NCBI RefSeq assembly: GCF_018069865.1
Contig: NZ_JAGQDG010000008.1
Span: forward strand, 1 to 64,000
DNA from: Ideonella paludis
GTDB taxonomy: Bacteria; Pseudomonadota; Gammaproteobacteria; Burkholderiales; Burkholderiaceae_C
Reading direction: 5' to 3'
Length of the DNA: 64,000 nt
Part shown: one piece after another, positions 5,959 through 59,200 of the stretch
Layout of the letters: the number at the start of each line of letters is the position of its first letter
How positions within the stretch are numbered: position 1 is the first letter of the stretch
Made by a program: the position numbers and the translations under genes
The notes under the pieces: model-generated
What the model saw: only the letters and a program-made list of their open reading frames with translations
Databases searched by the model: none
What the model was told of the DNA's origin: nothing

Positions 5959-6145
5959 TTGGGGCGAGTTGGAGGCGAGAAGTCACGCGCAGCAGTTTGA
6001 GTGGCCGAGCGCTGGGATGACTGGCCGCCCCGCCGCTCCGGCGCAGATGGCTTGCAGGAGGTCAGCGTGAGCCCAGCTCATTCCGAGGGTTACTGCCCAG
6101 CCGTCCTCCCTTCAAAACGTGTCCCAAAGTGACCACCCGGGGATA
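5959..6145. other. Non-coding tail between the GH92 gene and the cassette island
   Basis: No supported gene. The sequence shifts from GC-rich to the mixed composition of the island. If an integron integrase once sat left of the LexA-like box, this is where its start would be expected on the minus strand. I can read no integrase-like peptide there. Confidence 0.5.
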
Positions 6146-6185
6146 TAGTGCTGCCCAGCCCTGCGCCAAAATGCCGATCTGTTAA

Positions 6186-6205
6186 TACTGCATGTTTATC
6201 CAGTT
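6186..6205. promoter_or_regulatory. LexA-like SOS box
   Basis: TACTGCATGTTTATCCAGTT has the CTG-N10-CAG core and flanking TA/TT of the proteobacterial LexA operator. Integron integrase promoters are known to be LexA-controlled, and this box lies where the integrase promoter would be relative to the attI-like site. The second leader copy keeps only a degenerate version. Confidence 0.55.
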
Positions 6206-6254
6206 CAAAGCGCAATACGTCTGCAGCGACAAGCACTTAGAGGCTGCTTACCCG

Positions 6255-6320
6255 GCCTGTTGCTGGCGACAGGGTTTTTTCGGGCGACAGGCATCTGTCG
6301 CCACATAAAAAAGTTAGAAA
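6255..6320 (+). other. attI-like recombination site
   Basis: Two GGCGACAGG blocks and an inverted TGTCGCC precede ACATAAAAAAGTTAGAA. The end resembles, from memory, the class 1 attI1 end (AGTCGCC, A-rich, AAAGTTAGG), with the GTTAG core at 6313. It is followed 14 bases later by the first cassette-like gene, as expected for attI. Divergent enough that this stays a candidate. Confidence 0.5.
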
Positions 6321-6333
6321 ACGGTGATAGTTC

Positions 6334-7188
6334 ATGTACCCACAAGTGAATAAACTCGACGAAAACAACAAAGAGAGAATATATAACCTATTGGTATTAA
6401 AGGGCGAGGCCTTGCTGAAGGGGCAGTTCTTGGCCTTGCGCCAAGGTAAAGCTTGCGGCGAGTTACATAGTAATTTTTTCACTGCAATTTCCGATCAAAT
6501 CGACCCACTTCTTATTTATTTAATAAATGATGAAATAACCGCATCTCTACTTGAAAGAGGGCCTTTAACAAAATTAATCGAAGAGGTTAAGAATAGTCAC
6601 TATAGCGATGAGCATTTTAAACGACTGCAATATGCGGAAGATGATTTGCAAGACCTGTTTGCAAACAGAACTGATTTTATCATCGGATCAAATTTACTTG
6701 ATTTCAAAGTAAGCACATTTTCCTCCTTTGAAAAACATGTCGAGGAGCTATATGAAAGGTTATTGCTTAGAAAACCAAGAAGCGATAAAAAAGAAAGAAA
6801 ACTTGTTGAGTTGATTTGCAAATACTCCGAAAGTAGTGACGGTGACAAGAAGGCTTCGATCTTGGAGCAAATCAAAAAAGTTACCTTCTATGTATCCAGC
6901 GCTGAAAAAATAGATTACGTTTTATCTAAATCTGGAATTCAAAAAGATAGGTTAGATGAGGTACGCATTTTTCTGAATTTTTATAGAAACCAAAGAAATA
7001 CAATTCATAACCTAGGGGTTCACAAGGGGAAAAGTCAATCCCTGATTCTTAATGGCGTTGATATAACCTTAGAAAATGGCAAGCCTAGCTACACGGAAAA
7101 TCACAACTCAGCAATTTTTGCTTGCCATGAATTGATGGATATTTATGAGTTAATGCATACTGGCATTACTGGTGAAGCCGTTTTCTAA
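6334..7188 (+). CDS. HEPN-like protein, first gene of the cassette array
   Basis: 284-residue, strongly charged, mostly alpha-helical protein in AT-rich DNA unlike its GC-rich neighbours. Near the C-terminus FYRNQRNTIHN gives R218-x6-H225 (and R221-xxx-H225), matching the R-x4-6-H signature of HEPN domains, which are ribonuclease-like or nucleotide-binding modules frequent in toxin and antiphage proteins. I do not recognise the N-terminal 200 residues. It has no signal peptide or membrane segment. The gene ends in the TAA that opens a clear attC site, so it is a mobile cassette. A defence or toxin role is inference from the motif and setting. Confidence 0.6.
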   Translation: MYPQVNKLDENNKERIYNLLVLKGEALLKGQFLALRQGKACGELHSNFFTAISDQIDPLLIYLINDEITASLLERGPLTKLIEEVKNSHYSDEHFKRLQYAEDDLQDLFANRTDFIIGSNLLDFKVSTFSSFEKHVEELYERLLLRKPRSDKKERKLVELICKYSESSDGDKKASILEQIKKVTFYVSSAEKIDYVLSKSGIQKDRLDEVRIFLNFYRNQRNTIHNLGVHKGKSQSLILNGVDITLENGKPSYTENHNSAIFACHELMDIYELMHTGITGEAVF

Positions 7189-7271
7189 CATGGCGTTCAA
7201 CCGGACTCCAAACATGCTGGCTTCATTTCATTGTGCCAGCATGTTTTCCGCCGGTTAACTAAACGTTGAAC
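7183..7271 (+). other. attC site (integron cassette recombination site)
   Basis: R'' is TTCTAAC (overlapping the stop codon of the preceding gene), L'' lies within GTTCAACCGG, the central arms AAACATGCTGGC and GCCAGCATGTTT are perfectly complementary (7210-7221 and 7235-7246), L' is CCGGTTAACT and R' is GTTGAAC (fits GTTRRRY). Total about 89 bases, in the normal attC range. The next start codon lies five bases after R', typical cassette spacing. Confidence 0.8.
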
Positions 7272-7659: not shown

Positions 7660-7720
7660 GTCGGTTCGACCCGTCATTGCATCGGACGGGTGCGTCGCCC
7701 GCTGAGCTTCCACGTTAGGT
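7655..7720 (+). other. Degenerate attC-like site
   Basis: R' is GTTAGGT (7714-7720, fits GTTRRRY), preceded by CCGCTGAGCTTCCAC in the L' position. Complementary arms ACCCGTC and GACGGGT lie at 7669-7675 and 7685-7691. The R'' box is not conserved. The next ATG follows R' by six bases. Confidence 0.5.
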
Positions 7721-7726
7721 CCCACC

Positions 7727-8383
7727 ATGCGACTCCTCTTCCTCCAAGCTGTCGTTCTCTTACTCATGGCTTGTTCCAGTGCCTGGGGATCGGAAACAAC
7801 CGCGCCGATCTACGTGCGCGCAAACAACGTCAAAGCGGCTGTCGTGCTCAGGTTCTCAGCAGATTTGCTTGGCAAAAAAGTATTCATTGACCCGAAGCTA
7901 GGTGAGCAGCAGATCAACGTTCAAGGGGAGTATCGGAGCGAGGAAGTATTCTTTGCTCACTTCGCTTCCCTATTAAGCACTGTCGTAAAACGCGATGCGG
8001 AGGCAATTCAGATTGGTGAAAATCCGGCCGAGCCACAAGTAGCCCTCCCAGTACCGCGCGAAAACAATTGCCCGTATCGATATCCAGATCTTCAGGCGGC
8101 AGTCAAAGCCATGCTTCCCCATCGGCTGCGCATATGCCAGCCGCTCGAGTTCTTTCCACTCGACTCCCTGCGGGTAGGTGCTATTCTCGGTCAAGGTGGT
8201 AGGTTTCAAGCGATCGTTGTTTCACCAGACGGCGTCGCTTGGCGCCTGAAAGAAGGTGATTACCTGGGGCAAGATTTCGGGAGGATATTTCGCATATCAA
8301 GCTCTGAGATTGACCTGAGGGAGATCGTGCAAGATGAAAACGACGAGTGGAACGAAAGGCGATCGGCTCTACCTGTCAAGTGA
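7727..8383 (+). CDS. Exported protein: STN/secretin-N0-like domain plus PilP-like domain
   Basis: 218 residues. An N-terminal signal peptide (hydrophobic run to about residue 22; a MAC context could be a weak lipobox) precedes a domain near 27-100 (VRANNVKAAVVLRFSADLLG, KVFIDPKL, INVQG) resembling the short N-terminal N0/STN domain of secretins. Residues about 145-215 match the type IV pilus protein PilP: LRVGAILGQGGRFQAIVVSP, GDYLGQDFGRI, then LREIVQD and WNERR. PilP is an inner-membrane lipoprotein that contacts the PilQ secretin in the periplasm; here a secretin-like domain is joined to it. There are no pil genes nearby, and it sits between attC-like sites. The domain calls are by eye. Confidence 0.6.
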   Translation: MRLLFLQAVVLLLMACSSAWGSETTAPIYVRANNVKAAVVLRFSADLLGKKVFIDPKLGEQQINVQGEYRSEEVFFAHFASLLSTVVKRDAEAIQIGENPAEPQVALPVPRENNCPYRYPDLQAAVKAMLPHRLRICQPLEFFPLDSLRVGAILGQGGRFQAIVVSPDGVAWRLKEGDYLGQDFGRIFRISSSEIDLREIVQDENDEWNERRSALPVK

Positions 8384-8520
8384 CATCAAACCCTTCACTG
8401 CAGCGGACGGTTTCGCCGCCTGCTAAGCGCTCACGGTTGCTCGCCAACGAGCAGCGCCGTGCCAAAGTGAACTTGAACGACCGGCGGAGGACTCGCCCGC
8501 CGCAGAGGAAGGGGTAGAGC
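8384..8520 (+). other. Intergenic stretch with two hairpins, possible eroded attC
   Basis: No gene. It contains TGCTCG-ccaa-CGAGCA and CGGCGG...CCGCCG inverted repeats and a weak GCTAAGCGCTCACGGTTG that recalls the L'-R' end of attC. It closes with a good ribosome-binding site, GGAAGGGG, ahead of the next ATG. Confidence 0.3.
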
Positions 8521-8850
8521 ATGATTCCTGAAGTCGCGCCACTGCAGGTAAAGGCTGGTCAGGAGAGCCAGTTCGAACTTGCGTTCCTGCAAGCTCAACG
8601 CATCATCTTGTCCATGTCAGGCTACCTGTCACACGACTTGCAGCGTTGTATCGAGCGGCCTCGTGAGTACATCTTGCTGGTGACCTGGCAAACGCTCGAT
8701 GACCATGAAGTTGGCTTCCGGCAATCGGCCGAGTACCAAGAATGGAAGAGGCTGCTTCACCACTTCTACGAGCCGCTTCCCGTCGTGCTGCACTATCAGG
8801 CCGTCCGCGGCGCCTCGTTGACCAGCGCTCCCATCGAAGGGGCGGCTTAA
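8521..8850 (+). CDS. Antibiotic biosynthesis monooxygenase (ABM) domain protein
   Basis: 109 residues forming one ABM-like dimeric alpha/beta-barrel domain. The family pattern is visible in the order PLQVKAGQESQFE, then GYLSHDLQRCIERPREYILL, then WQTLDDHEVGFRQSAEYQEW and a final LPVVLHYQ. Such proteins are cofactor-free oxygenases or small-molecule binding proteins, and are frequent cargo of chromosomal integrons (established knowledge). No signal peptide. The ribosome-binding site GGAAGGGG precedes the ATG. The substrate cannot be inferred. Confidence 0.75.
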   Translation: MIPEVAPLQVKAGQESQFELAFLQAQRIILSMSGYLSHDLQRCIERPREYILLVTWQTLDDHEVGFRQSAEYQEWKRLLHHFYEPLPVVLHYQAVRGASLTSAPIEGAA

Positions 8851-8886
8851 GGACCTCCCATCATTTCAAACGGCAACAATCACGGC

Positions 8887-35237: not shown

Positions 35238-35864
35238 CTACCCCACACGCCGCCAATGCATGACCCAGTCGTGCTCCCAAGTTTGGCCGCCGTCGGCCGA
35301 ATAGACCTGGCGCCAGCGGCATTGGTCAGGGCCTATTTGGTCCCAGATGCCCATGGAGTGAATGAGCTTGCCGCTGTCTTCATAGGTGCTGGTGAACAGC
35401 CCAACCCCGTTTTCAAAGCTGCCCAATTGCCCGGGCGTGGTGAGCACACCGCTCTTGGCATTGACCCAGTGGTCTGACCATTGGCGCTTCTCGACATCCA
35501 GCATGCGCAAGCCCATGCCGCTGAAGTCGCGGGCCGGGATCAGCAGCTCTTCCACGCTGCCGATGCCGCCCAAGATGCTGACGCAGCGGGCCTCGCCGTC
35601 AAAGCGATCCCAACCGGTGCTGCGCCGCTTTAAGTTGCGGATGCGCCAACGGCCGTCGAGAAATGCAAAGTCGCCGGGCTGGCCCGGCGTGGGCGTGGCG
35701 GGGCGTGCCGGCACCGGGCTGAAGCGCTTCGGCTCGGCGTTGATCATGTCGTCGTCAGGCATGGTGCGGTGGTGCTCCTTCAAAACAGAGGCGGCGCCTG
35801 CCAGGGGGGCGGCTGCCAGCGTGGCCGAGCCGGCGATCAAGCAGTCACGTCGAGTCAGCGTCAT
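35238..35864 (-). CDS. TAT-exported hypothetical protein
   Basis: 208 residues. Twin-arginine-like leader MTLTRRDCLIAG with a hydrophobic run to AGA-A. The rest (GDFAFLDGRWRIRNLKRRS, SVEELLIP, GQTWEHDWVMHW) resembles DUF1579-type lipocalin-like proteins. Function unknown. It is divergent from the WYL regulator gene, with a palindrome between, so it is the likely regulated target. Confidence 0.65.
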   Translation of the reverse strand: MTLTRRDCLIAGSATLAAAPLAGAASVLKEHHRTMPDDDMINAEPKRFSPVPARPATPTPGQPGDFAFLDGRWRIRNLKRRSTGWDRFDGEARCVSILGGIGSVEELLIPARDFSGMGLRMLDVEKRQWSDHWVNAKSGVLTTPGQLGSFENGVGLFTSTYEDSGKLIHSMGIWDQIGPDQCRWRQVYSADGGQTWEHDWVMHWRRVG

Positions 35865-38819: not shown

Positions 38820-39434
38820 TCAGGCCAGGCGCTGCAACTCGTCCAAGGTGTTGGCGTTGAAGAATGCGTCGGCATCCTCAAACACCACCGTGGCACAGCG
38901 ATGCTGGGCGGTCCAGCGGTCGATTTTGCGCTCTCCAGCGGCCGTGGCTTTGACCAAGCTTTCCATCAAGCTGGCCTTCATCAAACAGAACACCGGCTGC
39001 ACCTGCAGGCGCAGCGCGCCGTCCGGCCCTGGCTCGCGGGTGGCGGCCATCGCCACGTCAGCGTCTTCGGCCAACAGGGCTTGGCCCAGGCGTTCCACCA
39101 GGTCGAGCGGGAAGTGCGGCGTGTCGCAGGGCACCGTCACCAGATAGGGGGTTTCGCAGTGCTCCAAGCCGGCCAGGAAGCCGGCCAAGGGGCCGGGGTA
39201 GTCAGCCAGCGCGTCGGGCCAAACGGGCACCCCAAAGGACTCATAGGCCCCGAGGTTTCGGTTGGCATTGATCATCACTTCGCCCACCTGCAGGCCCAGG
39301 CGCATCAAGGCATGCAGGGCCAGGGCTTGGCCGCGGTGTTTTTGCAGGCCTTTGTCGACGCCGCCCATGCGGCTGCCACGGCCACCGGCCAAGACCAAGC
39401 CGGTGATGTCAGAGGGAGAAAGTGCGGTACTCAT
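38820..39434 (-). CDS. mobA: Molybdenum cofactor guanylyltransferase
   Basis: 204 residues from MSTAL (a start nine bases earlier is possible). MobA transfers GMP from GTP to Mo-molybdopterin to make the bis-MGD cofactor. The nucleotide-binding motif is [18 protein letters not shown], with VPCDTPHFP and QPVFCLMK typical of MobA. Bis-MGD is the cofactor of the formate dehydrogenase at 60-64 kb, so this gene supports that enzyme even though it lies outside the operon. Confidence 0.93.
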
Positions 39435-39455
39435 GGGCGGCATGATGCCGCGTTT

Positions 39456-39821
39456 TCAGTCCAGCTGCGTCTCGCCAAACACAAAAGACGCGGTCTGGAT
39501 GAGCCCATCCTCCACCACGTAGATGCAGACCAGCTCGATGCTGCCAGGGCCTTCCGGAAAGGTGCGGGTCACGACCTCATGGTCGATCACCACATTCGCA
39601 GCCACCGAGCGCTGCAGCAGCTTGGCATGCAGATTGGGCTCAGCAAAGCGGGGCTCGGTGCGGGCGCGGATCTCGTCGCGGCCCATGGCCAGCAAGGTGG
39701 CCGGGTGCTCGTACTGGCGGGCTTCTGGCGCATAGGTGGCCAGCCACGCGTCCAGGTCCTTGGCGTTGTAGGCATCCAACTGGCGCTGGACGACGGCTGC
39801 TGGGCTGGTGTCTGCTGACAT
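39456..39821 (-). CDS. SnoaL/NTF2-like protein
   Basis: 121 residues, one NTF2-like domain: VVQRQLDAYNAKDLDAWLATYAP at the start, then a beta-rich second half with EVVTRTFPEGPG and VEDGLIQTASF. Similar to steroid isomerase-like proteins of unknown substrate. ATG at 39821 preceded by TGGAGTGCCC. It lies downstream of mobA only by position, 22 bases before the mobA start on the same strand. Confidence 0.8.
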   Translation of the reverse strand: MSADTSPAAVVQRQLDAYNAKDLDAWLATYAPEARQYEHPATLLAMGRDEIRARTEPRFAEPNLHAKLLQRSVAANVVIDHEVVTRTFPEGPGSIELVCIYVVEDGLIQTASFVFGETQLD

Positions 39822-39961
39822 GGGCACTCCAAAACTCGAGTCAGGTCAGACAGTGTGACATGCTTCTAGCCGACGTCTCAGGTGAGGCAGGTCTGCCACT
39901 TAGGGATGCCGTTAGCTTTGGCCTTGTCGTAGCGGCTTGCTCGCTTTGGTTAGTAGGGCTC

Positions 39962-39971
39962 GGGGGGGGGG
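39962..39971. repeat. Run of ten G residues
   Basis: A homopolymer G10 upstream of the NTF2-like gene (C10 on its coding strand, about 140 bases before its start), followed by C and GGGG. Such tracts can slip in replication, but could be a sequencing artefact. Confidence 0.5.
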
Positions 39972-40003
39972 CGGGGCAGGTCACGACCTCTTGCGCACGA
40001 GGC

Positions 40004-40318
40004 CTACCTTTGCGCCACTGCGAGCAGTGCCTTCGGGTTAGAACTCGCAATGGCCAGCAAGGTGCGAGCTGCACCGCTTGGCTGTTTGCGCCCTTGCTCC
40101 CAACCCTGTAGGGTACGAACAGACACGCCCATCAGTGAGGCAAACTGCGACTGAGAAAGCCCAGTTTTTTTCCGCGCCTCAATGACAGGCGACGACACAA
40201 CACGGACTTGCCCCGCCTTCATTTCGTTGATGGACTGCAGAAGCTCAGCAGCAAGATCTCGTTTGGATTCGTAAGCGGTCAGTTCCGCATCTGTCAGGGG
40301 TTTACGCTTCGAGGGCAC
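40004..40318 (-). CDS. XRE-family antitoxin (NadS/HigA-like)
   Basis: 104 residues. Start GTG at 40318 with AAAGGAG seven bases upstream. Helical N-terminus, then a helix-turn-helix (KKTGLSQSQFASLMGVSVRTLQGWEQGRKQPSG) in the C-terminal half, as in NadS-type antitoxins. It overlaps the toxin gene by 17 bases, in toxin-first order. By family rule, it binds the operator upstream of the toxin and represses the pair. Confidence 0.88.
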   Translation of the reverse strand: MPSKRKPLTDAELTAYESKRDLAAELLQSINEMKAGQVRVVSSPVIEARKKTGLSQSQFASLMGVSVRTLQGWEQGRKQPSGAARTLLAIASSNPKALLAVAQR

Positions 40319-40613
40319 GGCGAATCTCCTTTAACTTTGGGCCGGTCAGGTTGTCTGTTTTTGACTTCGCATAGAGCGTGAGCAAGACAACTTCACCATG
40401 TTCCGTCCGAGTGAAGTAGATCACTCGCACGCCACCAGACTTGCCCGAACCTGCGCGACCCCAGCGCACTTTTCGAATGCCGCCGGATTCGGGCACGACG
40501 TCTCCGGCAGTAGGGTGCTCAGCAATGTAGGCCGCAAACACGCCACGCTCTTCCTCTGTCCAATAGAGCGGCCACTGCCGTTGGAAGAGTAGGGTTTCGA
40601 CGACAGTGAGCAT
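40302..40613 (-). CDS. RelE/HigB-like toxin
   Basis: 103 residues from the ATG at 40613. Compact basic protein of the HigB/RelE mRNA-interferase type: AAYIAEHPTAGDVVPESGGIRKVRW, then GKSGGVRVIYFTRTEHGEVVLL and KSKTDNL. Inhibits translation by ribosome-dependent mRNA cleavage (family knowledge). Translationally linked to the antitoxin. A 15-base palindrome overlapping a TATAGT -10 box sits just ahead of its start. Confidence 0.88.
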   Translation of the reverse strand: MLTVVETLLFQRQWPLYWTEEERGVFAAYIAEHPTAGDVVPESGGIRKVRWGRAGSGKSGGVRVIYFTRTEHGEVVLLTLYAKSKTDNLTGPKLKEIRRALEA

Positions 40614-40623
40614 TGCTGGACTA

Positions 40624-40638
40624 TACGCCTTGGGCGTA
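40624..40638. promoter_or_regulatory. Toxin-antitoxin operator
   Basis: TACGCC-TTG-GGCGTA, perfect arms, lying 11-25 bases upstream of the toxin ATG. On the coding strand it runs directly into TATAGT, so repressor binding would cover the -10 box. Confidence 0.75.
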
Positions 40639-40950
40639 CAAATTCCCAGGGCCAAAGTTCACGAGGCGGGATCGGTCGGGGCTGGAACTCGTTCAAAGCT
40701 AGACCTGAAGCAGCCTCAACGCATCCCCCGTCCAAGCCTGTGTGTCGCTGATCATCAGCGGCCCACTCTCCCCGATCCCAGCGCCCCACGCCGCCAGTCT
40801 GGAGCCTCGGATCAATCTACGGTGGCAACTCCCGCCATCTCAAGCTCACCGGGAATATCTAACAAACGGCTAGGTAGCGGCTTCGCGCTACCTAGCCTTC
40901 ATCGGCAGGGATCATGCAAATGAAAATTTATTCCACGAAATCTATGTTTG
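40639..40950. other. Non-coding stretch with a hairpin between the toxin operon and the membrane-protein gene
   Basis: No gene is supported on either strand. Bases 40639-40855 show nothing recognisable. At 40857-40897 is an attC-like end with a 12-base stem (separate entry), and 40905-40950 is AT-rich tail of the small membrane-protein gene. Confidence 0.5.
40857..40897 (-). other. attC-like 3' end or terminator hairpin
   Basis: Read on the minus strand: stem GGCTAGGTAGCG / CGCTACCTAGCC around a six-base loop, then GTTTGTTAGAT, whose last seven bases fit the attC R' box GTTRRRY. It lies just downstream of the membrane-protein gene on that strand, the position of an attC. No R'' box is found, so a simple terminator is an alternative. 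Confidence 0.4.
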
Positions 40951-41256
40951 TCATTTTTTGGATCGTGACATTCCAAAAAAAGCACCAATCCAATACAGAG
41001 GAGTCATCAGAAGTGGGGTTAGGACGGGTCCTATATCCGTGTCCCCACCACTTTCCCAAACACCTATTTCATTGAGGGTTGCCATGATTGCATTCATGGC
41101 TATGGCCGGTAGAAAACCATAAAAGCTATACACCACTAAAGTTCCAATGACACCACCATGTCGTATTGGGCTCTTGGTTCTGTAGCCGAGGTAACAAGCC
41201 AGACCTGCAGCAGCAAAAACAGTTAACCATGAAACCAACATTTTTGGGTCGTGCAT
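40951..41256 (-). CDS. Small membrane protein, cassette-like
   Basis: 101 residues in AT-richer DNA than its neighbours; a GTG three bases upstream is an alternative start. Three hydrophobic segments: LVSWLTVFAAAGLACYLGY, GVIGTLVVYSFYGFLPAIAM, and LLMTPLYWIGAFFGM near a basic C-terminus. I do not recognise it. It is preceded by a leader resembling that of the cassette island at 6.1 kb, and followed by an attC-like hairpin, so it is best read as a foreign single-gene cassette. Confidence 0.55.
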   Translation of the reverse strand: MHDPKMLVSWLTVFAAAGLACYLGYRTKSPIRHGGVIGTLVVYSFYGFLPAIAMNAIMATLNEIGVWESGGDTDIGPVLTPLLMTPLYWIGAFFGMSRSKK

Positions 41257-41440
41257 CACCTTCCCTTCAATTTTTTGCGTGGCAAATGCTCCTGTCGCCC
41301 GGGTCGCCCGAGAAGCCCTGTTCCCTGCAACAGGCGGAGCGCGGTGTCACCAAATGCTGATCAATATTGACCTATTGCATCGCTGGCCAGATTTTTCGCA
41401 GCATTAACAACCCGACATTTTGGCGCAGGGCTGAGAAGTA
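41257..41440 (-). repeat. Integron leader-like module, copy 2 (inverted relative to copy 1)
   Basis: The reverse complement repeats the order of blocks in 6146-6330: CAGCCCTGCGCCAAAATG (here 41416-41433), TTGTTAAT, CCTGTTGC...ACAGGG...TCGGGCGAC, GCGACAGG, GCCAC plus A-run, and GGTGAT before the start codon. The LexA-like core is degraded (CTG and CAG no longer ten bases apart) and the GTTAG core reads ATTGAAG. No integrase gene lies beside it; the TorD-like gene ends at 41472. Confidence 0.6.
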
Positions 41441-41471
41441 CTAGTGCCGCGGGCTTGTCGCAGTCCCCCGC

Positions 41472-42098
41472 TCACTCCACCAAATCAAAGCCTTGGGTTT
41501 CGACCTGTACAAAGGCCCGGGTCATGTCGGCCACGGCGCGCCAGAGTTGGGCGCGGGGGTGGGCATCCACGGCGTTGCAGAGCTGCTCCACCCAGGGCTG
41601 CACATGGGTGCGGAAGAAGCGCCGCTGCTGCTCCAGGTTGCACACGGCCACATCGTCGCCCGCAATCAGGTAGCGCATCACTTCAAAGACCCCGGCGATG
41701 TGGTCTTCAGTTTGGCCGCTTTGCGCATCCCCCTGCAGGCCCAGTTGGGCCATGTCTTGGCGCAGCAGGGCCAGCGGCTTCTCGTTCAAGAAACCGGCCA
41801 GGTAGTGCGAGCCATAGACCAGCACATCGGGCTTGCCCACGCCGCCAAACAGTGCGTCGAACTCGTCTTGCGCCTGCGCCACCGTGGTGCTGCGCAGGGC
41901 GCCCACCAAGGCTTCCCAGGGGCCTTGCAAAAAGGCGCCGGCCTCGGGGGCCTCGGTCACGGCCACGCGGAACTGGGCCAGCAGCTCGTCGCTGGGGGGC
42001 GCCAGCCACAGCAGGGCCAGCACGCCATAGAGCTCGGCGCGGGCGCCTTCTTCGGCCTGGTCGGCCGTGGCAAAAGAGAGGGCTTGGGATGCGGTCAT
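41472..42098 (-). CDS. TorD/DmsD-family molybdoenzyme chaperone
   Basis: 208 residues, all-helical TorD-type fold: ARAELYGVLALLWLAPPSDELL, then the family-typical FDALFGG...GSHYLAGFLNEKPL and a C-terminal WVEQLCNAVDAHP. Such chaperones hold the unfolded molybdoenzyme and its TAT signal until the Mo cofactor is inserted. The formate dehydrogenase alpha subunit, with its TAT signal, is the obvious client. It ends the minus-strand accessory operon. Confidence 0.85.
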   Translation of the reverse strand: MTASQALSFATADQAEEGARAELYGVLALLWLAPPSDELLAQFRVAVTEAPEAGAFLQGPWEALVGALRSTTVAQAQDEFDALFGGVGKPDVLVYGSHYLAGFLNEKPLALLRQDMAQLGLQGDAQSGQTEDHIAGVFEVMRYLIAGDDVAVCNLEQQRRFFRTHVQPWVEQLCNAVDAHPRAQLWRAVADMTRAFVQVETQGFDLVE

Positions 42099-47275: not shown

Positions 47276-50200
47276 TTAACCGCCGTTGTCCGTCAGCAGC
47301 TTGCCTTGGTTGAGCAGGGTCTGGATCAACTGGCTGTCGCTGGAGTTGGCGCCCAAGCCCATGGCGCTGCGCAGGTCCACGCCGTCGAGCACGATGGTCT
47401 GGTCGCTCGCCCCCGGGGTGTATTCGCCATTGGCGAATTGGCCCGTGGTCGAGACATGCACCACGGTGCTGCCCGGCTGGCTGGTGGTGTCGAAGTCCAG
47501 GTAAGTGGACAGATCTATCCCTTGCTCGGGCGAGAGCAGGTCGCGCAGGTCCAGCGCATCGCCCGTGGCCGGGTTGAAGTCACTGATGTGCACCACACCC
47601 GCTTCTTCACCCTGGGCCGCGCCGGCCGAGCTGTTGTTGCGCAGCCAGACGTCAGAGATCTCCAGCACTGAGCCATCCGACTTCAGGTAGGTCGACTCCA
47701 TGGTGATGAAGTTGCCGGCCTGCTTTTCATTGCCGGTGCTGTGGCTGAGGTTGATCTCCACCACGCCCATCTCCGTCAGGGACTTCAGCTCGCCGGTGTC
47801 GGTCAGGCCGTCGCTGTCCGCGTCTTGCCAGATCTTCAGCACATTGAAGTTGGTATCCGCCGCGCTGATCTTGCCGTCTTGGTTGCTGTCCATGTCGGCC
47901 AGGGCTTCAAAGCCGTGCTTGGCTTGGCTGCCATCGGCCTTGATCGTGGCATCGCCAAACAGCTCGCGCCCGCTGTCGATGGTGCCGCTGTTGTCCAGGT
48001 CGGCCACCAGCAAGCCATCGTCTTTGCCCACCCAGCCGGTGCGGTCCTTGACGCCATCGCCGTTGAGGTCAAAGTTGACCCCCTCGCTGATGGCCATGGT
48101 TTCCACCCCGTCGCCGTCCAGGTCCAGGATCAGCGGGTCATAGAAGGTGACACTGTCGCTGCCCGTGCCCGAGCGATTGCCTGCCACATCGGTGATGTAG
48201 GCCTGTGCCGTGGCCGAGCCCGAGAAGGCCATGCTGAAGGAGGTGGCCACGAAGCCTTGGTTCAGATGCGCTTGGCTGACGGTGATGTGCTGCCAGGATT
48301 GGCCATTGGTGACCGAGACCACATCGCCCACCGCGGTGCCGCCCGGCAGGCCGACACGCACGTCCAAGGCGCCGGCGAACTCGCCCGGTGTGATCCAGCC
48401 GTCGTTGGCCGAGTCGTCGGTGATGGTCACGGTCGGTGTCGCCACCGCGGTGGTGTCCACACCGTAGCCCTTGTTGGCGGTGATGTCGGCCTGGTTGCCT
48501 GCAGCATCAGTGGCGCGCAGGCTGGCATCGATGCGGCGGTCGCCGTCGGCGGCCAGGTCGCTGCCCGGCACGGCCACGCTGAAGCTGCCATTGGCCGCCA
48601 AGGTGCCGCTGAAGGTCCTGCCGTTCACGGTCAGGGTGATGGTGTCGCCCTGACGGAACTCGCCGGCCACCGTGCCTGTGACGTTCACACTGCCGCCCGA
48701 CTCCGCCGCGTTGACAACGTTGTCGGCCGTCACGTTGCCAAAGCTGATGGAGGTGGTCGCGTTGCTCGGGCCGGTGGTGTCAATGCGGGCCGAATCCAGC
48801 CCCTGCGCGGAGGTGTTGCCGGCCACGTCGGTGAGCGTGGCCGTGACGCTGATGGTGCCGCCTTCGGCCGGCGCGGCAAAGCTGGTGTCAATGAAGCCAT
48901 TGGCCAGTTGCGCCGCATTCAGCACATAGCGGTCGGTGGTGGTGCCATCCGACACCGTCAGCGTGTCGCCCAACTGCGCCCCTGCAGGCAAGGTGATGCG
49001 CACGCCGATGTCGCCACTCAACTCTGCTGCACTGATGAAGGCATTGTTGTTGGCGTCTTCGGTGATGGTCACCGTGGGGGCGCCGGTGGCGGTAGTGTCC
49101 ACCGTGTAGGCGCGCGAGGCGGTGATCTCGGCCTGGTTACCGGCGGCGTCGGTCGCCCGCAGGCTCGCGTCCAGGGTCTTGTCGCCGTCGGCCGCCAAGT
49201 CGGCACCGGGCACATTCACGCTGAAATTGCCGTTCGCCGCCACCGTGCCGGTGAAGGTCTTGCCGTTGACCGTCAAGGTGATGCGGTCGCCCTCGGCAAA
49301 CTCGCCCGTGGCGCGGCCGGTCACCGCGACGGTGCCACCGGCCTCGGCGGCGTTGATCACGTTGTCGGCGGTCAGTGGGTCCAGCGTCACGCCGGTGCCG
49401 GCACCCGAGGGGCCGGTGGTGTCGAGCTGAGCGCTGTCGCTGCCTGGCGCCGAGGTGTTGCCCGCCATGTCACGCAAGGTGGCGGTGACGTTCAGCACCT
49501 CACCTTCCGCCGGGGGCGGGAAGTCGGTCAGCACCTGCCCGGCGCTGACCTGGGCCGCCGTCAGCGTGAAGGTGCGCTGGGTGGTGCCGTCGGTCACGGT
49601 CAGGGTGTCGCCCGCGGCCGCACCGGCGGGCAGGGTGATGCGCACATCCACCTGGCCGGCCAGCTCGGCCGCGTTGATGAAGCCGTTGTTGTTCAGGTCT
49701 TCCGCAATGGTGACGGTGGGGGCGGCCGTGGCGGTGGTGTCCAGGCGAGCGCTGTCGCTGCCTTGCGGCGAGCTGTTGCCAGCCATGTCGGTCAGCACCG
49801 CCGTGACATTGATCATCGCGCCCTCGGCCGGGGCCGCAAAGCTGGTGTCAATGAAGCCAGCGGCCACTTGGGCGGCCGTTAAGGTGAACGGTGTGGTGGT
49901 CGTGCCGTTGGACACCGTCAGGGTGTCGCCGACCACCGCGCCTGCGGGCAGGCTGACGCGCACATCGATCACGCCATTCAACTCAGCGCGGTTGATGAAG
50001 CCGTTGTTATTGCTGTCCTCACCAATGGTGACGGTGGGCGCTCCGGTGGCGGTGGTGTCCACCGAGTAGACGCGGCTCGCGCCAATGTCGGCCTGGTTGC
50101 CTGCAGCGTCGGTGGCGCGCAGGCTGGCGTCCAGCGTGCGGTCGCCATCGGCAGCCAGGTCAGCCCCCGGCACATTGATGCTGAAGTTGCCGTTGGCCGC

Positions 50201-53200
50201 GACGGTGCCTGTGAAAGGCTTGCCATTGACCGTCAAGGTCACGGTGTCACCGGGGGTGAACTCGCCGGTGGCACGGCCGGTCACGGCCACGGTGCCGCCG
50301 GCTTCCGCCGCGTTGACCACGTTGTCCGCGGTCAGTGCGTCCAGCACCAAGCCCGTGCCTGCTGCGCTCGGGCCGCTGGTGTCCACACGCGCGGTATCCA
50401 GGCCTTGCGGCGAAGCATTGCCCGCGATGTCGGTGAGGATGGCGGTGATGTTGACCATCTGGCCATCGGCGGGCGCCGCAAAGCTGGTGTCCACAAAGCC
50501 TGCGGCCACATGCGCTGCAGTCACGGTGATCGGGGTCGTCGTTGTGCCGTTGGAGACGGTCAAGGTATCCCCCGCCACAGTGCCTGCGGGCAGGCCCACG
50601 CGCACATCGATCACGCCATTCAACTCGGCGCGGCTGATGAAGCCGTTGTTGTTGGCGTCCTCAGCAATCGTCACGGTGGGCGCGCCCGTGGCGGTGGTGT
50701 CCACCGAGTAAGCGCGGGTGGCGCCGATGTCGGCTTGGTTGCCGGCCGGGTCGGTGATGCGGATGGAGACATCGAGTGTCTTGTCGCCATCGGCCACCAA
50801 ATCGGCACCGGGCACGGCCACGGTGAAGGAGCCATCCGCGCCCAGCGTGCCGGTGTAGGGCTTGCCGTTGGCGGTGATGGTGACCACATCGCCGGGGGTG
50901 AACTCGCCCGTGGCTTGGCCGGTCACATTGACCGGGCCTGCCGCTTCTGCCGCATTGACGATGTTGTCCGCCGAGACCGGGTTGACGGTGATGCCGGTCG
51001 TGGCCGAAGACGGGCCGGTCGTGTCGATGCGCGCGGCATCCGTGCCTTGCGGCGAAGCATTGCCCGCGATGTCGGTGAGGATGGCGGTGATGTTGACCAT
51101 CTGGCCATCGGCCGGCGCCGCAAAGCTGGTGTCCACAAAGCCTGCAGCCACATGCGCTGCGGTCACGGTGATCGGGGTCGTCGTCGTGCCGTTGGAGACG
51201 GTCAGCGTGTCGCCCGCCACAGTGCCTGCGGGCAGGCCCACGCGCACATCGACCACGCCATTCAGCTCAGCGCGGCTGATGAAGCCGTTGTTGTTGGCGT
51301 CCTCAGCAATCGTCACGGTGGGCGCGCCGGTGGCGGCGGTGTCCACCGAGTAAGCGCGGGTGGCGCCGATGTCGGCTTGGTTGCCGGCCGGGTCGGTGAT
51401 GCGGATGGAGACATCGAGTGTCTTGTCGCCATCGGCCACCAAATCGGCACCGGGCACGGCCACGGTGAAGGAGCCATCCGCACCCAGCGTGCCGGTGTAG
51501 GGCTTGCCGTTGGCGGTGATGGTGACCACATCGCCGGGGGTGAACTCACCCGTGGCTTGGCCGGTCACATTGACCGGGCCTGCCGCTTCTGCCGCATTGA
51601 CGATGTTGTCGGCCGAGACCGGGTTGACGGTGATGCCGGTGGTGGCCGAAGACGGACCGGTGGTGTCGATGCGCGCGGCATCAGCACCTTGCGGCGAAGC
51701 ATTGCCCGCGATGTCGGTCAGGATGGCCGTGACGTTGATGGTTTGGCCATCGGCCGGCGCGGCAAAGCTGGTGTCCACAAAGCCTGCGGCCACATGCGCT
51801 GCGGTCACGGTGATCGGGGTCGTCGTCGTGCCGTTGGAGACGGTCAAGGTATCCCCCGCCACAGTGCCTGCGGGCAGGCCCACGCGCACATCGACCACGC
51901 CATTCAACTCGGCGCGGCTGATGAAGCCGTTGTTGTTCGCGTCCTCGGCAATCGTGACGGTGGGCGCGCCCGTGGCGGCGGTGTCCACCGAGTAAGCGCG
52001 GGTAGCGCCGATGTCGGCTTGGTTGCCGGCCGGGTCGGTGATGCGGATGGAGACATCGAGTGTCTTGTCGCCATCGGCCACCAAATCGGCACCGGGCACG
52101 GCCACGGTGAAGGAGCCATCGGCGCCCAGCGTGCCGGTGTAGGGCTTGCCGTTGGCGGTGATGGTGACCACATCGCCGGGGGTGAACTCGCCCGTGGCTT
52201 GGCCGGTCACATTGACCGGGCCTGCAGCTTCTGCCGCATTGACGATGTTGTCGGCCGAGACCGGGTTGACGGTGATGCCGGTCGTGGCCGAAGACGGGCC
52301 GGTCGTGTCGATGCGCGCGGCATCCGTGCCTTGCGGCGAGGCATTGCCCGCGATGTCGGTGAGGATGGCGGTGATGTTGACCATCTGGCCATCGGCGGGC
52401 GCCGCAAAGCTGGTGTCCACAAAGCCTGCGGCCACATGCGCTGCAGTCACGGTGATCGGGGTCGTCGTTGTGCCGTTGGAGACGGTCAAGGTATCCCCCG
52501 CCACAGTGCCTGCGGGCAGGCCCACGCGCACATCGACCACGCCATTCAACTCGGCGCGGCTGATGAAGCCGTTGTTGTTGGCGTCCTCAGCAATCGTCAC
52601 GGTGGGCGCGCCCGTGGCGGTGGTGTCCACCGAGTAAGCGCGGGTGGCGCCGATGTCGGCTTGGTTGCCGGCCGGGTCGGTGATGCGGATGGAGACATCG
52701 AGTGTCTTGTCGCCATCGGCCACCAAATCGGCACCGGGCACGGCCACGGTGAAGGAGCCATCGGCGCCCAGCGTGCCGGTGTAGGGCTTGCCGTTGGCGG
52801 TGATGGTGACCACATCGCCGGGGGTGAACTCGCCCGTGGCTTGGCCGGTCACATTGACCGGGCCTGCCGCTTCTGCCGCATTGACGATGTTGTCGGCCGA
52901 GACCGGGTTGACGGTGATGCCGGTGGTGGCCGAAGACGGGCCGGTCGTGTCGATGCGCGCGGCATCCGTGCCTTGCGGCGAAGCATTGCCCGCGATGTCG
53001 GTGAGGATGGCGGTGATGTTGACCATCTGGCCATCGGCCGGCGCGGCAAAGCTGGTGTCGATGTGGCCTGCGGCCACTTGAGCGGCCGTCACCACAAAGC
53101 TGGCGGTGGTGCTGCCGTTGGAGACGGTCAGCGTGTCGCCCGCCACGGTGCCTGCGGGCAGGCCCACGCGCACATCGATCACGCCATTCAACTCAGCGCG

Positions 53201-56200
53201 GTTGATGAAGCCGTTGTTGTTGGCGTCTTCGGCAATGGCCACCGTGGGTGCGCCCGTGGCGCTGATGTCCACGGCATAGGCACGGCTGGCGCTGATGTCG
53301 GTCTGGTTGCCGGCAGGGTCGGTGGCACGCAAAGACGCCTGCACTGTCTTGTCCGCATCCACCGCCAATTCGGCGCCAGGCACGGCGATGCTGAAGCTGC
53401 CATCGGCGGCGACTTGGCCGCTGAAGCTTTGGCCGTTGATGTCCAGGGTGACGGTGTCGCCCGCGGTGAACTCGCCCGTGGCATGGCCGGTGACGCGCAC
53501 CGTGTCACCCGCCTCGGCGGCGTTGATCACATTGTCCGCGCTCAGGCTGTCCAGCACCAAGCCGGTGGTGCCGCCAGGGCCGCCGCTGGGGCCGGTGGTG
53601 TCGATGCGCGCGGCATCCGAGCCCTGGGCCGAGGCGTTGCCGGCGATGTCGGTGAGGATGGCGGTGACGTTGACGGTCTGCCCTTCAGCCGGGGCTGCAA
53701 AGCTGGTGTTGACAAAGCCTGCCGCCACTTGCTCGGGGGTCAGGGTGAAGGTCGACGTGGTGCTGCCATTGGAGACGCTCAAGCTGTCGCCGGCCACGGT
53801 GCCTGCGGGCAGATCGACCCGCACGTCGATGACACCATTCAACTCCGCGCGGCTGATGAAGCCGTTGTTGTTCGCGTCCTCGGCGATGGTGACGGTGGGC
53901 GCGCCGGTGGCTGCGGTGTCCACGCCATAAGGGCGGGTGGCGGTGATGTCTGCCTGGTTGCCGGCGGGGTCGGTGATGCGGATCGAGACCTCCAGCGTCT
54001 TGTCGCCGTCGGCCGCCAGGTCTGAGCCAGGGACGGACACGGTGAAGCTGCCGTCTGCCCCCAAGGTGCCGGTGAAGGTCTTGCCGTTGGCGGTGAGGGT
54101 CACCACGTCGCCGGGGGTGAACTCACCCGTGGCTTGGCCGGTGACGGGCACCGTGCCGCCAGCTTCTGCGGCGTTGATCACGTTGTCCGCCGTCAGCGGG
54201 TTGAGACTGATGCCGGTGGTCGCGCTGCTGGGGCCGCTGGTGTCCACGCGGGCGCTGTCGCTGCCCTGCGGCGAGGTGTTACCCGCCACATCGGTGAGGG
54301 TGGCGGTGATGGTCACGGTGCCGCCGGTGGGCGGGGCAACAAAGCCGGTGAGCACATGGCCTGCGCTCAGGTCTTGGGCCGTCAACACGATGCTGTTGGT
54401 GACCTCCCCATTGGAGACATCGATGCGGTCGCCCACGGCGGCGCCTTGCGGCAGGTCGACCCGCGTGATGATCAAACCATTGAGCTCCGCACGGTTGATG
54501 AAGCCGTCGTTATTGGCGTCCTCGACCAAGGTGACGGTGGGTGCGCCGGTGGCGCTGGTGTCCACACTGAAGAGGCGGCTGGCGCCGATGTCGGCTTGGT
54601 TGCCGGCGGGGTCGGTGGCACGCAAAGAGCCGGCCACGCTGTGGTCCGGGTCGGCGGCCAAGTCGGCACCCGGCACGGCAATGCTGAAGCTGCCATCTTG
54701 CGCGACGATGCCGGTGAAGTTTTTGCCATTGACGCTCAGCGTGACGGTGTCGCCGGTGCTGAACTCACCTTGGGCTTGGCCGGTGACCTGCAAGGTCTGG
54801 CCGGCCTCCGCCGCATTGACGATGTTGTCGGCCGAGATGGAGTTGATGACCAGGGCGGTGGTGCTGGCGTCTGGGGTGGTGTAGTCGAACTCTGCCGCAT
54901 CGCCGGCTGAAGCCGAGGTGTTGCCGGCCTCGTCCGTCAGCGTGACGCGGGCGATCAAGGCTTCGCCCGAGGCCGGGGCGTCCACCTGCGTCAACACGCG
55001 GCCCGCGGCGAGCTGCTCGGCGGTGATGGTGAGTGTCTGGTTGCCGGTGGAGGTGCTCAGGTTGAGCACATCGCCCACGCGAGCGCCCGCAGGCAGGCCA
55101 ATGGTGATGTCCACCTTGCCGGACAGTTCCGCCAGGTTGACCACACCGTTGTCGTTGGCGTCCTCGGCAATGGTGAGGGTGGGCGCGGCTGTGGCCGTCA
55201 GGTCCACCACCAAAGACTGCACCGGGCTGGCCGGGCCGGTGTTCCCGGCGGGGTCGGTGGCGGTGGCGGTGAAGCTGTGCGGGCCTTCGCTCAGCGGCGT
55301 GGCCGGGGTCAGCGTCCAGCGGCCGTCTGGGTCCACGGTGGCGGTGCCGATCAGGTCGCTGCCGTCATAGACCTTGATGGTGGCACCGGGCTCGCCCGTG
55401 CCGCTCAAGGTGGGGGTGGTGTCGTCGGTGCGCGCGCCTTCGGTCAGTGCGCCTTGCACCGTGCCCACATCGTCGCCCAAGCTGGTGATGGCGGGCGCAG
55501 CCGGGCCTTGGGTGTCCACGGTCACTGCATAGGGGGCGGTGGCGGGGCTCACCACACCGGCGGCGTTGGTGGCGGTGGCGCTGAAGCTGTGCGGGCCGTC
55601 GGCCAACGGGCTGCTGGGGGTGAAGCTCCAGCGCCCGGCGCTGTCTGCCGGCACGGTGCCCAGCAAGGTCGTGCCGTCATAAACGCTGACCGTGGTGCCT
55701 GCAGGGGCTGTGCCTTGCAGCGTGGGCAGGGTGTCGTCCGTGACGCCGTCGGGCTGCACCGCGCCTTGCACCGCGCCCACGTCATCGCGCAGCGCGGTGA
55801 TGGTGGGGGCCGTGACGTCCTTGGTGTCCAGGGTGAAGGTGGTCGGTGCCGAGGCCGGGCTGGTGTTGCCCGCCACATCGGTTTGGGTGGTGCTCAGGCT
55901 GTGCTCACCGTCCTGCAGCGGTGTGGTGGGGGTGAACTGCCAGGTGCCGTTGGGTTTGACCACGGTGCTGCCAATGGGCTGGCCCAGGTCGTAGATGGTG
56001 ACCGTGGCACCGGGCTCACCGGTGCCGCTGAGGCTGGGGGTGGCGTCGTCGGTGGTTTGGCCGTTGCTGATGGTGCCGACCACGGGGCCGACGTTGTCCA
56101 GCGCGATGACGGAGTTGGGCGCGTCGGGGTTTTGGGTGTCCACCACAAAGTCATAGACGCCAGTGGGCGCGCTGACATTGCCGGCCGCATTGGTGGCGGT

Positions 56201-59200
56201 GACGGTGATGGCATGCGGGCCATCGGCCAGCGGCGTGGCGGGCGTGAAGGCCCAGCGGCCGCTGCTGTCGGCGTTGGCGGTGCCCAGCACCCTGCTGCCG
56301 TCGCGCACGGTGATCAGTGCGCCGGGCTCGGCCGTGCCGCGAATGCTGGGCTGGGTGTCGTCGGTGATGCCGGTGCTCTTGGCCACATGGCCCTGCACCG
56401 TGCCTTGGTCGTCCATGACATTGACGATGGCCGGCGCCGAGGGCGGTGCATCATCCATCAGGTTGAAGTCGCGCGGCGCACTGGGGGCGCTGGTGTTGCC
56501 GGCTTCGTCCACGGCGCGGGCGCTGATCTCGTGCTCACCCAGCAGCAGCGGCAGCGTGGGGGTGAAGGTCCAATAGCCATCCGGTCCGGTGGTGACGCGG
56601 CCCAGCAGGGTATCGCCGTCAAAGACTTCAACGGTGGAGCCAGGCTCGGCCGAGCCCCAGATGGTGGGCTTGGCGTCGTCCGTGGTGGCGCCAGGCGCGA
56701 TCTCGCCGACGACGGCGCCGGTGTTGTCAAAAATGCCGCCAATCGTGGGCGCATCCGGCGGCGCAATGTCGATGGTCAGCGCAAACGGTGCGCTGGGCGC
56801 AGAGGTGTTGCCCGCCGGGTCGGTGGCGGTCAGCGTGAACTCGTGCGCGCCGGGTGTCAGCGGTGTGAGAGGCGTGAGGCTCCAGGTGCCGTTGGGCTTG
56901 ACCACGGCGGTGCCCACGGGCTGTCCGCCGTCCAGCACCGTGATGGTGTCGCCGGGGTTGGCGCCGCTGCCGCTGAAGGTGGGCGTGTTGTCGTCAGTGC
57001 TGTCACCGCTCTGCAGGCTGCCTTGAACGCGGCCCACGTCGTCGCTGATTTGCAGGCTGGGCGGGGCATCGGGGGCTTGGGTGTCCACCACCACACGGAA
57101 GGCGTTGGAAGGCTCGCTGGGCACGCCGGCTGCGTTCAGGCTCACAGCCACAAAGTCATGCGGGCCATCGGGCAGCGGCGTGCTGGGCGTGAAGCGCCAT
57201 TGGCCGCTCGCATCGGCGCGGGTCTCCCCCAGCAGGGTCTCGCCGTCAAACACCTGCACCACTTGGTTGGGCTTGCTGCTGCCGCTGAGGGTGGGGGTGG
57301 TGTCCTTGCTGGCCTGGTTGAAAGCCATGGGCACTTCGCCACTGGCCCCTGCTTCGGTGACGCTGTCGATGGTGGGGCTGGACACCACGCTGGTGTCGAT
57401 GCTGAAGTTCAGCGGCGCGGTGGGCGTGCTGACATTGCCCACGGCATCGGTGGCGGTCACCGTCAGGCTGTGCGGGCCATCAGGCAGGGCGACGGGCGGC
57501 GTGAAGCGCCAGGTGCCATCGGGGCCCACCGTGGTGCTGCCCAGGGCCACGCCCTTGTCATAAACAGTGATGGTGCTGCCGGGCTCGGCATTCTTGCCTT
57601 GCCAGGTGGGGGTCGCGTCGTCCGTGGTGCTGCCTTCGGTGATCTCGCCACGCACGGGGCCGGCGTTGTCGGTCACGGTGTCCACCGCCACTTGGCGCGG
57701 CGCCTGCGTGTCGATGGTTAGCGGCCAGGCGCCGGTGACGGGGCTGTGCACGCCGTGGATGTTCACCGCCTCGGCCGTGAAGGCCCAGGTTTTGTCGGCC
57801 AAGGCACCGGGTGTGATGCTCCATTCGCCCTTGGCATTGACCACCGCGCTGCCGACGGGCTGGCCATCGGCAAACAGGGTCACGGTCTCACCGGGGCGGC
57901 CACTGCCGTTCAGGGTGGGCGTGTTGTCGTTGGTGCCGCTGCCCTTGGTCAGCAGGCCTTCAACGGGCGTGACGTTGTCGGTGGCGCTGATGATGCTGGG
58001 CACCTGGGGCGCGCCGACATCAACCGTGAGCGCAAAGGGCTGGCTGCTCGGGCCAGTGTTGCCGGCCGGGTCGGTGGCGGTGGTGGTGACGCTGTTGGGG
58101 CCTGCAGGCAGCGGCACTTCGGGTGTGAAGGTCCAGGTGCCATTGGGGCCGACCGGGGCGGTGCCGATGGGCACGCCGTTGGTGTAGACCGTGACGGTGC
58201 TGCCGGGCTCCGCGCTGCCGCTGAAGGTGGGGCGGCTGTCGTCGGTGGCGCCGCCAGGGTTGAGTTGGCCTTGAATGGGGCCGTGGTCATCGACCACGCT
58301 GCCGATGCTGGGCGACAGCGGCGCGGTGCTGTCCACCGTGCCGGTGCTGGTGCTGGTGCTGGGGTTGCCGGCGGCATCGCGGCCGGTGACCTCTACCGTG
58401 AACTTGCCGTCGGGCAGCGGTGTGCTGGGTGTCAGGCTGAAGCTGCCATCCGGGCGCACGGTGGCCTGAGCCGTTTGGGTCTGGCCGTTGGCGTCGGTGA
58501 TCTTGACCTCCACCGGGGTGCCGCTGGGCAGGTCGGTGCGGCCGGACACCGTGGGCTGGGTGCTGTTGCTGAGGTCCGGCGCATCCACGCTCACGCTCGG
58601 CGCCTGGGTGTCCACCACCCCCGTGGTGGTGTTGGTCTGGGCATTGCCCGCAGCGTCCGTGGCCACGACCTGCACGGTGTAGCGGCCATCGCTCAAGGTT
58701 TGAGGGGGGCTGACCGAGAAGCGGCCATCGCTGCCGATGGTGGCGGTCAGCTCCTGGCTGCGGCCCACCGCGTCCACCACGGTGACCTGCACCGTGCTGC
58801 CGGGGGGCAGATTGCTCTGGCCGGTGATGGCCGGGGTGTTGTCGCCCGTGATGGCGACCGGGTCCAGGCGCAGCGTGGGTGGTGTGGTGTCCACGGTGCC
58901 GCCCGTGGTGACGGTGGTGTTCTCGGCCTGCACATTGACCGAGAAGTTGCCGTCGGGCAGAGGGGCGGTGTCGACCGCAAAGCGGCCGTCGCTGCCGACC
59001 GTGGCCGTGATGACCTGCACCTGGCCATTGGCGTCGGTGACCGTGACGGTGACCAAGGAGCCCGGCGCCAGGTCGGTGCTGCCGGAGATGCGTGGCGTGG
59101 CGTCGCCGGTCAGGCCGGGGTTATCCAGCACGATGTTGGGCGGGGTGGTCGGGGTGGTGCCGTCGGGTGTGCCGCCCGCTGTGCCTGCGGTGGGGAACTC

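Follow-up and report, generated by a model that had tools for sequence, protein, structure and literature searches.

Two leaders in the window and their neighboring genes

The window, by which we mean the whole 64-kb stretch of Ideonella paludis DNA that was analyzed, carries two copies of a leader sequence in opposite orientation, one near 6 kb and the other near 41 kb (Table 1). The earlier note had described the same order of sequence blocks in 6146-6330 and in the reverse complement of 41257-41440, and pairwise alignment bore this out, with 41266-41444 of the minus strand being a diverged copy of the 6144-6321 leader. The two share the 18-mer CAGCCCTGCGCCAAAATG, found at 6156-6173 on the plus strand and at 41416-41433 on the minus strand, and this block would be within the 5' UTR of an integrase gene, intI. 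The copies aligned with a local score of 48, compared with a mean of 16.5 and a maximum of 32 for shuffled sequences (0/1000 reaching 48), each such control consisting of 1000 dinucleotide-preserving shuffles. Similarity outside the shared 18-mer, on which the note had staked its reading beforehand, was likewise found; the part after the 18-mer scored 36, compared with a mean of 15.6 and a maximum of 29 for the shuffles (0/1000 reaching 36). The low-GC orphan gene said to follow each copy is also present, the GC content being 36.4% for the gene at 6334-7188 and 45.3% for that at 40951-41259 in a window of 65.4%. Neither gene had a Pfam family at E 0.001.

The 6 kb copy is 88% identical to a leader adjoining an intI gene on contig C17 of the same genome. 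Next to it is a relic of an intI start, whose alignment scored 49 compared with a maximum of 7 in 12 shuffles. The element at 6188-6203 is what we take to be a LexA box. The core of this copy fits G-T-T followed by purines, but has A as the last base instead of a pyrimidine. With three clear attC sites and no intI, the 6 kb locus is a CALIN in the sense of two or more attC sites without intI. Between attC 2 and attC 3 is a gene for a PilP-domain protein (PF04351, E 1.1e-23; 7727-8383), an unusual cassette cargo. The gene to the left of this locus was matched in five genomes of the genus, and inspection by eye of the sequence following it in three of these (G001, G002, and G013) revealed no empty site for the 6 kb copy.

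The 41 kb copy begins about 27 bases past the stop codon of torD. Its LexA-type box is not intact, and a GTTRRRY core was not found at its end. Following the 102-aa gene no attC was found, the best match in 39400-41480 reaching 4.9 bits (attC model, filters off), and this locus, having no attC, lies outside the CALIN definition. Promoter scans found no promoter consensus at either window copy, no Rfam family matched in the 64-kb window at gathering threshold, and the TIGR02249 (IntI) profile had no match in the window at E up to 10, which therefore holds no complete integron with intI in the same locus.

Table 1. Features of the two window loci and sites of the 287-bp repeat. Coordinates are window positions unless a locus (L) is named.
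Feature	Position	Strand	Evidence or remark
Better preserved orphan attI leader (first copy of the earlier note)	6144..6321	+	R1 match, 149.7 bits, E 1.1e-43
Relic of intI 5' UTR and about 17 codons of intI start	6050..6143	-	Anchored extension alignment
LexA-type box of integrase promoter	6188..6203	.	CTGCATGTTTATCCAG, one base off the C17 version CTGTATGTTTATCCAG
attI core GTTAGAA	6313..6319	+	Exact reverse complement of R'' box TTCTAAC (7183-7189) of first attC
First cassette gene, 284 aa	6334..7188	+	No Pfam or PADLOC match
attC 1	7183..7271	+	20.7 bits, E 5.9e-4 in 4.1 kb, filters off
attC 2	7664..7720	+	27.7 bits, E 1.4e-5
attC 3	8385..8441	+	18.9 bits, E 0.0015
Possible decayed attC 4, close to background	8826..8874	+	11.3 bits, E 0.086; best opposite-strand match 9.8 bits
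Orphan attI leader, decayed	41266..41444	-	R1 match, 103.7 bits, E 1.9e-29 (one of the 11 copies from which R1 was built); extent as matched by R1
attI core position, reading ATTGAAG instead of GTTRRRY	41265..41271	-	Leader tail sequence
TorD/NarJ-like chaperone gene	41472..42098	-	PF02613, E 2.3e-22
102-aa gene adjoining leader	40951..41259	-	ORF; no Pfam family
RelE-like toxin gene of toxin-antitoxin pair	40302..40655	-	PF06296, 28.5 bits, cut-off 27
Helix-turn-helix gene, presumed antitoxin	40004..40318	-	PF01381, E 1.1e-9
Gene at far end of insert, SnoaL-like by eye only	39456..39827	-	Common to I. paludis and Ideonella sp. MAG2
mobA-like gene, named from motif by eye	38820..39443	-	ORF; synteny with Ideonella sp. 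MAG2
287-bp repeat	L012:4075-4361
287-bp repeat	L011:6972-7256
287-bp repeat	L046:7636-7920
287-bp repeat	L096:12164-12571
287-bp repeat	L098:8058-8266

Identity of the leader and state of the integrases

In the window's own genome (G000; 4.8 Mb in 22 contigs) and in that of the congener Ideonella sp. MAG2 (G011; PTEU01), one leader lies directly upstream of an intI gene, at C17:201 kb and C2:1288-1289 kb, respectively, and the window copies align to these intI-adjoining leaders. Both intI genes are broken, and their products are 92% identical over the first 182 residues. Because one leader in each genome abuts intI, the leader is the intergenic region between the integrase gene and attI, comprising a LexA-type box and then attI ending at a GTT core. 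The term integron leader used in the earlier note is thus supported, several copies also ending at a GTT core that is followed by attC-bearing genes. The names LexA box, R'', and core, like the signature of attI x attC recombination, are used here in their established sense, in agreement with the papers cited. Among the 18 intI genes or fragments of the genus, all have a CTGT-N8-CAG type box upstream (with up to 2 mismatches) and 13 have a GTT core no more than 430 bases from where the segment starts; the core consensus GTTRRRY is that given in PMC10127599 and PMC12901181.

An IntI match above the TIGR02249 cut-off was present in 14 of 16 genus genomes. The I. paludis genome gave none above this cut-off, its intI at C18:86 kb being frame-shifted and those on C17 and at C18:181 kb truncated. 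A single frameshift, either real or a sequencing error, splits the C18:86 kb gene (L049:8201-9171) between two reading frames. In MAG2, the IntI of the first type is a 251-aa frame covering model positions 1-181 and 270-315, and since it lacks the LRHCFATH stretch of intact relatives and has this gap against the model, we take it to be inactive. Searching the 1.5 kb that precede the orphan leaders with tblastn gave no credible IntI match. G028, from another genus, has an intact IntI on its contig C5 (459.7 bits), and the leader of that gene is unmatched by the leader model and differs from the three orphan leaders of the same genome. The MAG2 integron locus has a second tyrosine-recombinase gene, and a block close to it (L043:15951-18505) recurs twice in I. 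paludis, at C16:443 kb and C20:117 kb (L051:7193-8026 and L052:5754-8000), in one case beside the last 29 codons of an intI.

Number and distribution of the leaders

A plain DNA search revealed six leader copies in the I. paludis genome at E < 0.001. A sequence-only leader model (R1) was built from 11 copies, six from I. paludis and five from MAG2, which match it by construction. With this model, eight leaders were found in I. paludis at E <= 1.5e-6, at C21:6 kb, C21:41 kb, C17:201 kb, C11:852 kb, C11:226 kb, C20:261 kb, C20:277 kb, and C19:228 kb. The model also matched, as the ninth and at E 0.007, a leader of a second type on contig C18. Both copies counted in the earlier note are therefore real, but the count fell short, the genome holding eight by the leader model and the second leader type twice on C18.

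The search for further copies in the same family that the note had proposed found ten with the leader model in MAG2, three in G028, and one in G241, the last two genomes belonging to another genus. By plain DNA search the leader is in 2 of 16 genus genomes, and by the model in at least three of 299 family genomes; the family survey gives lower bounds, as the best 8 candidates per genome were scored and MAG2 evidently fell outside that draw. The plasmid collection had no match to the leader or to a 287-bp repeat at the limits used.

This dispersed 287-bp repeat is on the intI side of five leaders, 59-122 bases away, and among the 36 sequences searched (610 kb) it was present only at these five loci. 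The repeat might have hitchhiked with the leaders, might have served as their landing site, or might belong to the copying mechanism.

attC sites and core matches at orphan leaders

A strict attC finder was tried and set aside, as it gave 3 matches in the window compared with 1-2 in three shuffles and none near the leaders, though it found canonical arrays. It was replaced by a covariance model built on 19 attC sites from intI-linked arrays, with none from orphan loci. All 16 matches of this model in the orphan loci (E up to 5) were downstream of the leader and on its strand, the weak ones being those at C20:277 (E 0.15), G011 C2:649 (E 0.84), and window position 8826 (E 4.6).

The end of each leader was then compared with the reverse complement of the R'' box of the first attC for 20 leaders, 18 of them orphans (a set that excludes the G241 copy and G011 C1:1872). 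Six of the 20 matched at 7/7 positions, with six different 7-mers; these are the MAG2 intI locus and five orphans, namely, the 6 kb copy, C20:261, C20:277, G011 C1:477, and G028 C11. Since an exact core match is what attI x attC recombination leaves, it is the mark of cassette capture at these five orphans, and such clean traces are borne by some of the younger copies. An attC without a 7/7 match was present at C17, where a partial attC comes first, and at C11:852, G011 C2:1011, C2:649, and C2:573. Nine leaders had no attC downstream (41 kb, C19:228, C11:226, G011 C5:166, C1:472, C1:920, and C2:1258, and G028 C9 and C4). The 13 of 18 orphans lacking an exact match thus comprise these nine and four with a decayed or non-matching junction. 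From these patterns we predict that orphan leaders act, or acted, as attI.

Some genes downstream of the leaders resemble defense genes. In locus L044, where the leader is at 7812-7984, three consecutive short genes downstream appear TIR-like by eye and are perhaps defense cassettes, the first matching PF13676 at E 4.4e-5, below the cut-off of that family. The first gene after the C11:852 leader (L054:11364-12173) matched DUF6602 (E 6.4e-18) and PADLOC NucC-type models (E 5.5e-14 and 2.5e-8).

History of the leader sites in two species

TorD was matched in 9 of 16 genus genomes, the match in the ninth, G013, being weak. In six relatives (G001, G002, G007, G008, G012, and G014) torD and the mobA-like gene are directly adjacent, and the gene found at the far end of the insert is absent between them. 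In I. paludis and MAG2, torD and the mobA-like gene are separated by the leader and other genes, with the leader starting no more than about 30 bases past the torD stop. The far-end genes of the two species are 94% identical over 125 aa as stop-to-stop frames. The 102-aa gene and the RelE/helix-turn-helix pair form the species-specific part of the I. paludis insert and have no counterpart in that of MAG2. As the same insertion is present in both, it is older than the split of the two species. The torD of MAG2 is split, with part repeated, beside an N and a transposase-like ORF (L045:7900-9650), probably an assembly join.

Flank synteny paired six of the eight I. paludis sites with sites in MAG2 (6 kb, 41 kb, C20:277, C17, C11:226, and C19:228). 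C19:228 was paired by its left flank only, as the MAG2 contig ends there, and was left out of the gene comparison. In the five pairs compared, no ORF of at least 60 aa near the leader is common to both species, whereas distal or flanking ones are; on the leader's strand, the first shared ORFs are at about +3.4 kb (6 kb), +1.4 kb (41 kb), +1.3 kb (C20:277), +0.8 kb (C17), and +2.3 kb (C11:226). The different first genes at shared sites could alternatively result from unequal loss from a once larger array.

C11:852 and G011 C2:1011 were considered as species-specific insertions with clean empty sites, and this was rejected, the other species having different DNA there. No recognizable leader was found at the other species' counterpart of either site (best 6.3 bits), nor was a clean boundary. 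In G002, the flanks of C11:852 are 28 bases apart.

Leader identities, to C17 or to one another, range from 27 to 88%, and a leader tree was mostly unresolved, with one of 19 inner branches well supported. For the majority of orphans, identity to the intI-linked leaders equals or exceeds that to the orthologue. Identities to C17 and to the orthologue are 61% and 53% for the 41 kb copy, 88% and 60% for the 6 kb copy, and 46% and 47% for C19:228.

Possible selective decay inside the orphan leaders

Conservation along the leader is uneven. In nine aligned orphans the alignment window at TGCGCCAAAATG was the most conserved (0.95, permutation p 0.0025) and that at the LexA-type box the least (0.56, p 0.0005), which is what would follow once intI need not be controlled any more; the caveat applies that several copies were found via the conserved block. 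The six older ones among these nine behaved alike, with 0.96 for TGCGCCAAAATG and 0.42 for the LexA-type box (0/2000 permutations). In seven further orphans of I. paludis and MAG2 outside the model alignment, the LexA region was again low (0.39-0.50) but not lowest, the lowest window (0.21) being the intI-side edge and the best (0.80) being GACAAGCACTTA and not the TGCGCC block. The four copies of the other genus had 0.44-0.58 in the LexA region, and no window was significantly low. The pattern suggests that intI control was freed from constraint, which persisted elsewhere in the leader.

Origin of the orphan leaders

The earlier note had offered duplicated integron loci, a mobile leader unit, or cassettes carrying their own promoter module. 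The last is not supported and was rejected, as leaders precede serial attC sites wherever arrays are visible, the 6 kb leader with three clear ones being an example, and the promoter scans of the two window copies were empty. Duplicated loci fit best, given the intI-start remains at two orphans and a duplicated platform on C18. There, two loci of the second integron type 95 kb apart, C18:86 kb (L049:8114-9465) and C18:181 kb (L050:8894-9680), have 679 bp in common at 98.4%, a stretch whose end is a few bases at most from the attI core. One locus lacks about 566 bp of intI; past this gap the two are again similar (82% over 110 bp) over the stop codon of the gene. The long identity together with the partial loss of intI indicates that a whole platform was copied and intI then lost from one copy. 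Such platform copying is documented for the second type only. Among 20 first-type orphans tested, intI-start remains are present at the 6 kb copy (about 17 codons) and at C11:852 (about 23 codons), weak traces are present at C20:261 and G028 C4, and no intI start was found at the other 16. Homology on the intI side varies from about 113 bases at C11:852 and 94 at 6 kb to 16 or fewer at C2:1011 and C2:649, and no fixed left boundary of a leader unit was found when one was looked for.

The reading we favor, and hold to be reasonably probable, is that an integron platform was copied to many loci, where intI was lost and attI was kept as a docking site. Whole platforms with intI and attI would have been copied around the chromosome by a mechanism that is itself part of the proposal, and intI would have been deleted at each copy. 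An integrase produced elsewhere in the cell may then have continued to dock cassettes at the stranded attI sites, until it presumably broke as well. A point against this reading is that I. paludis and MAG2 both lack an intact IntI of the first type today, so that capture in trans is not observed. For the 41 kb copy, fossil docking site is the most fitting name; it is apparently among the older, now inactive copies, and the working picture of docking sites rests on its siblings.

Alternatively, the leader might travel without intI. IntI would act at a cryptic site close to where intI starts and release a circle holding the leader, attI, and the first cassettes, which would insert elsewhere as a long version of a delta-attI cassette. 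Such cassettes exist and are moved by IntI1, and one of them contains 238 bases of the attI2 region (PMC12901181); the 16 of 20 orphans without an intI start would be accounted for, as would the leaders at torD and at G011 C2:1011 kb, each of which begins no more than about 30 bases from a resident stop codon. The left ends of the copies differ, however, as expected from deletion, inspection of the torD junction by eye showed no GTT-type crossover, and the C18 pair is a case of a whole platform being copied; we regard this route as unlikely. It is quite improbable that each orphan is the independent arrival of a related integron from outside that later lost intI. About a fifth of integron-bearing genomes have more than one intI (PMC9024848, PMC2426708), and the spread of leader identities indicates strongly differing ages or rates, but the orphans of I. 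paludis and MAG2 form one leader family of the narrow distribution described above, and most are as close or closer to an intI-linked leader than to their orthologue. That the leader is an ordinary intergenic repeat unrelated to integrons, for which the missing promoter consensus and the separate 287-bp repeat might speak, is hardly credible given the two copies that abut intI, the orientation of the attC sites, the exact core matches, and the orthologous placement in two separately assembled genomes.

A further reading is that of a distributed integron, in which a single trans-acting integrase would serve numerous attI docking stations scattered over the chromosome, every one holding an array of its own at a fixed address. 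We put this extension forward tentatively and with some doubt. G028 could be a living example, with its intact IntI on C5 and orphans on C4, C9, and C11, the last having the exact core match.

Relation to known integron structures

Like a sedentary chromosomal integron, the loci have a leader with a LexA-type box and GTT core followed by attC-bearing genes; unlike one, they have attI leaders at 8-10 loci per genome, nearly all without intI, whereas integrons typically have one attI near the integrase (PMC9024848). The loci resemble CALINs in having attC-bearing genes with no intI nearby, and CALINs of Xanthomonas recur at seven loci (PMC12444791), but here a recognizable attI leader heads the arrays, and the CALIN definition makes no mention of attI (PMC9024848). 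Stray insertion, intI loss, or rearrangement have been proposed as the origin of CALINs (PMC8618304). Pseudo-integrons arising by duplication have been proposed for several genomes (PMC2426708) and share with our loci a duplicated integron and a dead intI; here, in contrast, most copies have lost intI entirely or almost so, and what is left, many times over, is attI. Delta-attI cassettes, which occur in integrons of classes 1 and 2 (PMC12901181), likewise have attI sequence away from intI, but this replaces the attC downstream of a gene, whereas the leaders described here are upstream of the gene and before attC where this is seen. IntI also acts on attI-like secondary sites (PMC10127599). In the literature searched, which leaves most subscription journals outside, we found no description of repeated or integrase-less attI leaders, a weak sign of novelty.

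Integrase-less arrays are common; here the retained attI leader makes their origin readable, and for one site the empty locus is present in relatives. If attI stations can be served in trans, cassette capture would not be confined to one chromosomal place, which might simply explain why arrays recur at certain loci, as they do in Xanthomonas. Current annotation would miss this, because IntegronFinder leaves attI undetected outside class 1 (PMC9024848).

Other observations in the window

ARAGORN reported a tRNA of undetermined identity with a two-base anticodon at 35672-35762, which is perhaps false. A reading frame of 4156 aa occupies 47276-59746 and has internal repeats at 642-base spacing, seen as offset self-similar matches to MAG2.
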